Part shown: positions 25,499 to 27,372 of the stretch, in pieces
How the letters are laid out: each line of letters opens with the position of its first letter
Numbering within the stretch: position 1 is the first letter of the stretch
IMG/VR virus record: IMGVR_UViG_3300013100_000008
Coordinates: 1-40,228 of that record
Direction: 5' to 3' (one strand)
Length of the DNA: 40,228 nt
Origin: a virus
Made by a program: the position numbers and the translations under genes
The notes under the pieces: generated by a model
The model's input: only the letters and a program-made list of their open reading frames with translations
Database searches by the model: none
What the model was told of the DNA's origin: nothing

Positions 25499-25742
25499 GG
25501 TGGCTACTTAGTGGCCACTTTCAGGAACTACCTGGGATTACTTGGAGCTACCAACCCTTGAGAATCCGCGGAGTGGTAACCCAAAGTAGCCCCAGGGAAA
25601 CGGAACGGCATATCAGACTGCATTGCATTCGGGGGTTCGAATCCCTCACTCGCCACCTCTAGAAAACACTGACGAAAACGCCCCTCTGGTCTTCGGATCG
25701 GAGGGGCGTTTTTCTGTTCGGTGGCTACTTAGTGGCTACTTA
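25499..25742. promoter_or_regulatory. attP: attP region: tRNA-derived core and integrase arm-type repeats
   Basis: The core candidate, 25631-25655, is the T-arm and acceptor 3' strand of a tRNA: GGGGG-TTCGAAT-CCCTC then ACTCGCC-A, which fits a host tRNA beginning GGCGAGT. Arm-type repeats surround it: GTGGCTACTTA followed by GTGGCCACTTT at 25500-25521, tandem GTGGCTACTTA at 25721-25731 and 25732-25742, GATTACTT at 25536 and an inverted AAGTAGCC at 25584. The site is next to the integrase 3' end, and no gene lies in the gap. The core would let the phage restore the tRNA gene on integration. Confidence 0.85.
25675..25712. terminator. Bidirectional terminator beside integrase
   Basis: AAAACGCCCCTC (25675-25686) pairs with GAGGGGCGTTTT (25701-25712), 12 bp, with U-runs on both strands. 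It would stop the leftward integrase transcript and any rightward read-through. Confidence 0.88.
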
Positions 25743-26881: not shown

Positions 26882-26901
26882 GACGCCTCCTCGCTGAATG
26901 T

Positions 26902-26919
26902 CCGTACAGTGCACTACGG
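26902..26919. promoter_or_regulatory. Inverted repeat in integrase upstream region
   Basis: CCGTACAGTGCACTACGG has perfect 5-bp outer arms and a palindromic GTGCAC centre. It lies between the LexA box and the integrase ribosome site and may be an operator for integrase control. Confidence 0.35.
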
Positions 26920-26928
26920 TGACATGCA

Positions 26929-26944
26929 TCGAACAAATGTTCGA
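26929..26944. promoter_or_regulatory. LexA (SOS) box
   Basis: TCGAACAAATGTTCGA is an exact match to TCGAAC-N4-GTTCGA, the actinobacterial LexA operator. It lies 47 bases upstream of the integrase start (leftward) and 21 bases upstream of a small rightward ORF at 26966. Host LexA should repress one or both of these until DNA damage. A 16-bp perfect match of this kind by chance in 40 kb is very unlikely. Confidence 0.85.
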
Positions 26945-26965
26945 ACTTTTGAACCAGGGGGAACG

Positions 26966-27103
26966 ATGATCGCAACAGTGAAAGACCTCGCTGATACCGC
27001 ACGACTGGTTGGCATGCACCCGTCATGCCTGCTCCACCGCGTTCTCGGCACTGATGAAGATTGCCTGAGGGGACACGCCGAGTGCTCCACACAGTTCAAC
27101 TAG
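26966..27103 (+). CDS. Small SOS-box-associated ORF antisense to repressor 3' end
   Basis: This is a 45-residue frame (MIATVKDLADTARLVGMHPS..., ending CSTQFN). AGGGGGA at 26956-26962 is a good ribosome site 4 bases from the ATG, and a perfect LexA box sits just upstream, so an SOS-induced rightward transcript would read it. Its last 81 bases are antisense to the repressor gene. The helical leucine-rich sequence has no recognised domain. It could be an antirepressor similar in logic to Tum of coliphage 186, or the transcript itself may act as antisense RNA. The frame could also be fortuitous. Confidence 0.5.
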   Translation: MIATVKDLADTARLVGMHPSCLLHRVLGTDEDCLRGHAECSTQFN

Positions 27104-27268
27104 CGCCGGCGTCGGGATGTCACGCTTGCCGTTGAGGTAATTGAGGACCGCGCTCTTGGAGAGTCCAGTCGCGGCAACGAGCTGTTCGATGGTCATCTGC
27201 ACCCGTCCGCGCTGCGCGCGAAGCTCGGCTGCGACCGCAGCGTTGAATCTGTCTCCGTAAGTACCCAT
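27023..27268 (-). CDS. XRE-family immunity repressor (short)
   Basis: This is an 81-residue protein on the minus strand. An XRE helix-turn-helix lies at about residues 26-62 (MTIEQLVAATGLSKSAVLNY, then GKRDIPTPALVELCGALGVS). There is no room for an S24 self-cleavage domain. ATG 27268 is placed 6 bases after a TATAGT -10 box, so the mRNA is probably leaderless. It is transcribed divergently from the Cro-like gene and toward the integrase, the standard lysogeny arrangement. Confidence 0.82.
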   Translation of the reverse strand: MGTYGDRFNAAVAAELRAQRGRVQMTIEQLVAATGLSKSAVLNYLNGKRDIPTPALVELCGALGVSPQAIFISAENAVEQA

Positions 27269-27372
27269 GCGGCCACTATAGCGCCATTGTGAACACCAAT
27301 GGAAGTCAAACTGGTCAAAAAAGATTCCGTTTGGCGGTTGTGCGGTGTTCAAACGGCGCGTATGGTGTTCAT
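27269..27372. promoter_or_regulatory. Divergent repressor/Cro promoters with shared operators
   Basis: Leftward: TATAGT (reverse of 27275-27280) ends 6 bases before the repressor ATG. Rightward: TTGTGC 27338-27343, 17 bases, TATGGT 27361-27366, with the ATG at 27373 at about +1. The motif GGTGTTCA occurs in both promoters exactly 9 bases before the -10 (27344-27351 on plus; TGAACACC 27290-27297) and once more at 27364-27371. The left copy sits in the dyad CCATTG-N7-CAATGG (27284-27302). Another dyad CCGTTTG/CAAACGG spans 27327-27356. These are probable repressor/Cro operators. Confidence 0.7.

Follow-up and report, generated by a model that had tools for sequence, protein, structure and literature searches.

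The repressor region of the window (the whole 40,228-nt stretch of viral DNA analysed) probably contains a DNA-damage-controlled antirepressor gene that is repressed by LexA and activated by PafBC, and we put the probability of this reading at roughly 0.6. An SOS-induced antirepressor had been proposed in an earlier note on this DNA and is still the best reading. Its LexA box, a real small gene and a non-cleavable repressor were all found, while a PafBC-type promoter that belongs to the same unit had not been foreseen. The features are listed in Table 1. By its tail genes the window is closest to Microbacterium phage Footloose, whose immunity region is different, and its repressor shows 61% identity to those of Propionibacterium phages E1, E6 and Anatole. 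Between the repressor gene and the cro-like gene lie repeats of the likely operator region (TGAACACC at 27290 and GGTGTTCA at 27344 and 27364). The attP-like region contains a core resembling a tRNA 3' end (approximately 25631–25657) between two 22-nt arm repeats (25499–25520 and 25720–25741) that differ at one base. Integration-dependent immunity, in which attP lies within the repressor gene, was rejected because this tRNA-like core and the arm repeats are located beyond the 3' end of the integrase gene.

Table 1 Features of the immunity region of the window and genes found behind the same composite promoter elsewhere.
Feature	Position	Strand	Remarks
Likely attP	25499..25741	.	From repeats and sequence; putative core
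Tyrosine integrase, 381 aa	25736..26881	-	PF00589, phrog_1
RecA-NDp/PafBC-type promoter, ATGTCCGTA-CAGTGCAC-TACGGT	26898..26920	+	TGTC at 26899-26902, -10 element at 26915-26920
LexA box, TCGAACAAATGTTCGA	26929..26944	.	Over the expected transcription start; resembles host LexA boxes
Ribosome-binding site of the small ORF, GGGGG	26957..26961	+	
Small ORF, 45 aa	26966..27103	+	ATG start; putative DNA-damage-induced antirepressor
Antisense overlap of the small ORF and the repressor 3' end	27023-27103		81 nt
Repressor, 81 aa	27023..27268	-	XRE helix-turn-helix only (Pfam HTH_31/HTH_3); annotated as immunity repressor in relatives
Likely operators, intergenic between repressor and cro-like genes	27290..27371	.	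Repeated octamer; putative function
Cro-like gene, 81 aa	27373..27618	+	phrog_4583 transcriptional repressor, E 9e-14
Excisionase-like HTH_17 protein, 60 aa	27615..27797	+	PF12728, phrog_66
ImmA/IrrE-type metallopeptidase genes	L268:1286-1747, L278:1-430, L288:1-424; possibly L285:1-170		
Other phage genes behind the composite pattern	L282:7674-9223, L291, L262, L154		

No S24 domain or any other second domain was found in the window repressor, in agreement with the earlier claim that it is too short for S24 self-cleavage. The repressors of all 41 loci assembled in this study are similarly short (76–86 aa, one incomplete extract excepted) and have no cleavage domain. The window repressor therefore shares with Tum and GfoA/GftA-type systems the absence of a domain for RecA-stimulated self-cleavage.

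The LexA box has exactly the position and sequence claimed for it, and TCGAACAAATGTTCGA is the sole perfect match in the window. To score it we used a matrix trained on host lexA promoters alone (89 boxes from 56 genomes, drawn from an Actinomycetes sample and Microbacteriaceae; consensus TTCGAACATATGTTCGAA). The box reached 25.7 bits, a level expected by chance at approximately 5e-7 per site, or approximately 0.02 sites per window strand; the second-best site in the 40 kb scored 12.5. Relatives were gathered with the repressor protein from IMG/VR, bacterial genomes and phage records. Within 120 bp of the start of the small ORF, a strong LexA box was present in 20 of the 26 loci with homologous repressors, located 1–27 bp before the start codon. 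Judged by its sequence, the site at 26929 is a LexA box, and like the promoters of the LexA regulon this one carries a box matching the host LexA motif. An operator of the phage repressor was considered for the same site and rejected, since the repeats on the repressor side are GGTGTTCA, the box matches host LexA sites, and it persists where the repressors differ.

The second element, TGTC-N12-TANNNT, has its only plus-strand match in the window at 26899, so that the strict core of the PafBC (RecA-NDp) promoter is present. Of the 26 loci, 23 have this strict core ahead of the small ORF, with an expectation of approximately 0.002 per 100 bp. Against the full consensus, which we take to be TTGTCRGTG-N8-TANNNT and whose core was checked on host recA promoters, the window has three mismatches and L035, L034 and L002 have 0–1, L035 matching the full motif. 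In an independent check, 22 of 23 Microbacteriaceae recA genes had the core upstream, and all eight host-family genomes carried WYL-domain genes in a tandem pair, the arrangement that PafB-PafC would show. The promoter is imperfect in L042 and L016. It is retained in four loci that have no convincing LexA box (L034, L035, L043 and L044). The earlier idea of LexA as the switch thus holds as far as the box goes, but because the promoter at 26898–26920 persists where the box has been lost, LexA appears to be only half of the control. One relative (L003/L018) keeps the small ORF although it lacks a LexA box and matches the promoter poorly; an integrase gene lies upstream in the same direction, so that expression may be coupled differently there. 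The RecA-NDp motif, its regulator PafBC, the activation of PafBC by single-stranded DNA and the extension of the system to other Actinobacteria have been described, and some host genes, recA included, combine a RecA-NDp promoter with an SOS box (PMC8223512, PMC6789036, PMC11804915). A published study reports a lack of conservation of the mycobacterial motif in Streptomyces (PMC9380542), which calls for caution in the PafBC reading. Going by the two motifs, the promoter and the box would be used by PafBC and LexA, respectively.

The rightward ORF, its ribosome-binding site and its antisense overlap with the 3' end of the repressor gene are present as the earlier note described them. A small ORF directed at the repressor 3' end occupies the same place in the 26 loci, and over the whole set, small genes of 31–84 aa that run towards and into short XRE repressor genes are found in many IMG/VR contigs as well as in Propionibacterium, Arthrobacter and Microbacterium phages. 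A G-rich ribosome-binding site stands just 5' of the start in nearly all relatives, the exception being E1/E6, in which the ATG is beside the box. Alignment of the 26 relatives revealed a conserved core, T-x7-A-x3-G-x6-L. The comparison with related phages therefore bore out the module, with ORF position, ribosome-binding site and core kept alongside the box. The gene is annotated as a hypothetical protein in Arthrobacter phages Sarge, Bauer and ArV2, and as a helix-turn-helix protein in Arthrobacter phages Maja, Shoya and Zucker. In the group of 61-aa versions, the 53 codons outside the repressor gave pS of 0.60 and pN of 0.29, with pN below pS in 36 of 36 pairs. Neither of the remaining forward frames shows this pattern. 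A similar ratio was obtained in one reverse frame, where the silent positions coincide; the test thus shows coding, and the strand is assigned from the start codon, ribosome-binding site and length. In the window's own group, pS and pN outside the overlap were 0.74 and 0.60, a small synonymous excess that makes the test weak, and part of the conservation of the ORF stems from the overlapping repressor gene. Taken together, these comparisons indicate that the small gene is real.

The strongest alternative, which we nevertheless consider unlikely, is that the induced RNA acts and not the protein, with antisense pairing or transcriptional collision lowering repressor synthesis. The oop RNA of phage lambda, a LexA-controlled, non-coding transcript antisense to cII, acts on its target in such a way. 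The likeness to the present case is that a transcript under LexA control runs opposite the 3' end of a gene encoding a regulator; in contrast to oop, the window transcript encodes a conserved protein and lies opposite the main repressor. In every locus the ORF and the repressor gene overlap in antisense orientation over 24–201 nt, and no strong terminator was found between the promoter and the repressor gene. In addition, Propionibacterium phage E6 has a second cassette beside repressor gp34 (L001:8830-8881) with the same composite promoter (TTGTCTGTG-N8-TACATT, then TCGTACACATGTACGA) and only a 16-codon ORF behind it, possibly an antisense-only version. However, the shortage of amino acid changes relative to silent ones in the 61-aa group and the retention of ribosome-binding sites and starts point to a protein, and halting synthesis alone would not quickly clear the repressor already made. 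An antisense or collision effect, which the earlier note had also put forward, is less favoured given that conservation of the ORF is at the protein level and that the overlap in the Arthrobacter group is just 24 nt, although it may contribute.

Structure prediction gave an XRE-like fold for the 61-aa version (pLDDT 90.6). The best PDB matches of this model are XRE proteins (TM 0.70, Foldseek E 0.05), and the 61-aa relatives have weak Pfam matches only. The 45-aa window protein had no match in Pfam or PHROG profile searches and was modelled as helices with a mediocre pLDDT of 72.6; its resemblance to the last two helices of an XRE fold is suggestive. The core and the last helices of the repressor share a register (position 52 in most loci), which is not significant locus by locus, and profile comparison showed weak similarity. 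No cognate match between small protein and repressor, and no cognate preference, was detectable in the profile and register comparisons, which were set aside on these grounds.

These models bear on a further possibility, that the small protein competes for the repressor operators as a Cro-like DNA-binding protein and does not bind the repressor. The 61-aa versions, modelled as a whole XRE-like fold, would suit such a role. The versions of 31–45 aa, the window's included, lack the segment in which a DNA-reading helix would lie, and a separate cro-like gene is present; we regard this alternative as improbable.

We give little credence to the proposal that the box and promoter control the integrase gene, or that an SOS transcript reads through the repressor gene into the lytic operon with no role for the small protein. 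The integrase start is close by on the other strand in the window and in L002, but the neighbour and the orientation of the integrase vary among loci while promoter, box and small ORF stay. An adjacent leftward integrase gene is confined to these two; elsewhere the neighbour is another gene, or an integrase gene in the opposite orientation. The earlier suggestion that the same box also switches integrase was dropped, as the arrangement is not conserved.

The composite DNA pattern alone was scanned over 2.9 million viral contigs and gave 38 hits, 18 of which precede a small ORF that runs towards the gene of a short XRE repressor. When the spacing was shortened by three as a control, the scan returned 14 hits, and no hit (0/14) belonged to this module. 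Three scans together added 15 new loci, including some repressor groups with less than 50% identity to the starting set; the first composite scan was too loose, and most of its hits were due to chance. The total of 41 loci corresponds to 37 repressor clusters at 90% identity and 16 at 70%, and loci within one cluster are not independent. An unused palindrome beside an accidental ORF is scarcely credible: although a single perfect palindrome of 12 bases could arise in 40 kb, the comparative data contradict it, as both promoter elements and the ORF recur in 16 repressor groups and were recovered by the blind scan.

Among 300 Microbacteriaceae genomes, the composite pattern was found in 28 (L307-L335) and the backward control in none. 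The host genes behind it, named by reading their sequences, include ImuA-like, dnaE2-operon-type, UmuD-like and LysM genes; the presence of SOS mutasome-type genes indicates that the pattern marks DNA-damage promoters. In one bacterial genome (L315), probably within a prophage, it stands before a 49-aa ORF (MELSAADIMRAASEMNVAPSVLL...) that resembles the core of the small gene. In L268, L278 and L288, the composite promoter precedes an ImmA/IrrE-type metallopeptidase gene (PF06114, above the cut-off), and in L268 this promoter lies beside a helix-turn-helix gene and a serine recombinase gene. The metallopeptidase genes are apparently leaderless, with the ATG within the LexA box. Other phage genes behind the pattern encode an HD-domain protein, a tyrosine recombinase, a serine recombinase and an excisionase-like protein; these could be further damage-induced genes or chance hits.

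The antirepressor reading suggests the following course of events. In a lysogen, LexA bound to its box would cover the start of transcription, and as long as single-stranded DNA is absent the PafBC-type promoter would be inactive. Upon DNA damage, LexA would be cleaved, and PafBC activated by single-stranded DNA would direct RNA polymerase to 26898–26920. The transcript would yield the 45-residue helical protein, which would bind and disable the 81-residue repressor, and the cro-like gene and the lytic operon would then be expressed. Production of new repressor may in addition be affected by antisense pairing or collision, as the two genes converge and overlap. We infer inactivation of the repressor by the small protein from its position, from the promoter it has in common with ImmA-type proteases and from its likeness to the XRE fold. 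We also lean slightly towards a broader view, in which a widespread class of temperate actinophages is wired to both LexA and the RecA-independent activator PafBC. Prophage induction would then depend on a PafBC-activated, LexA-gated promoter placed before antirepressors that can replace one another, either tiny XRE-like proteins whose genes converge on the repressor gene or proteases of the ImmA type, and some phages would have lost the LexA part and use PafBC only.

Several known systems resemble parts of this arrangement. ImmA-type metallopeptidases, such as that of the ImmA/ImmR pair of ICEBs1, inactivate XRE repressors that cannot cut themselves. The window repressor is likewise unable to self-cut, and the ImmA-like genes of L268, L278 and L288 share the window-type promoter, whereas the window product is a 45-aa peptide without an enzyme motif. 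SinI is a small helical antagonist of the XRE repressor SinR and resembles part of it, as the putative antirepressor of the window may do; SinI is a host protein that is not under DNA-damage control. Coliphage 186 Tum and Gifsy GfoA/GftA also combine a non-cleaved repressor with a LexA-controlled small protein expected to disable it after damage. The likeness drawn here is one of control, and the window adds the PafBC-type promoter. In the Gifsy phages, the antirepressor unit is apart from the immunity region (PMC3121763), while the window gene converges on and overlaps the repressor gene. Host genes of the PafBC/RecA-NDp regulon have the same TGTC-N12-TANNNT promoter and combine it with an SOS box (PMC8223512, PMC11804915); in the window, both elements are in one promoter of a phage gene. 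In the TF-smORF prophage modules, a small protein also inactivates a repressor of lysis, but these work independently of DNA damage and beside self-cleaving repressors (PMC10432266).

LexA-controlled antirepressors are already known (Tum, AntC, GfoA/GftA; PMC3121763), but the literature search turned up neither a PafBC-type promoter for prophage induction nor the family of convergent small genes. In the literature searched, which covered papers available without subscription, we found neither a link between PafBC and prophage induction nor a description of the small ORF-repressor module in Arthrobacter phages. If the reading is true, it would be the first such link, as far as the literature found. 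How actinobacterial phages with short uncleavable repressors sense DNA damage is largely unexplained, and the module offers a concrete, testable circuit common to sequenced laboratory phages (Arthrobacter Sarge, Bauer, Maja, Shoya, Zucker and ArV2; Propionibacterium E1 and E6). The composite promoter also provides a DNA handle for finding antirepressor genes that are too small for annotation. With such a circuit, a dormant phage could wake after damage although its repressor has no damage-cleavable part.
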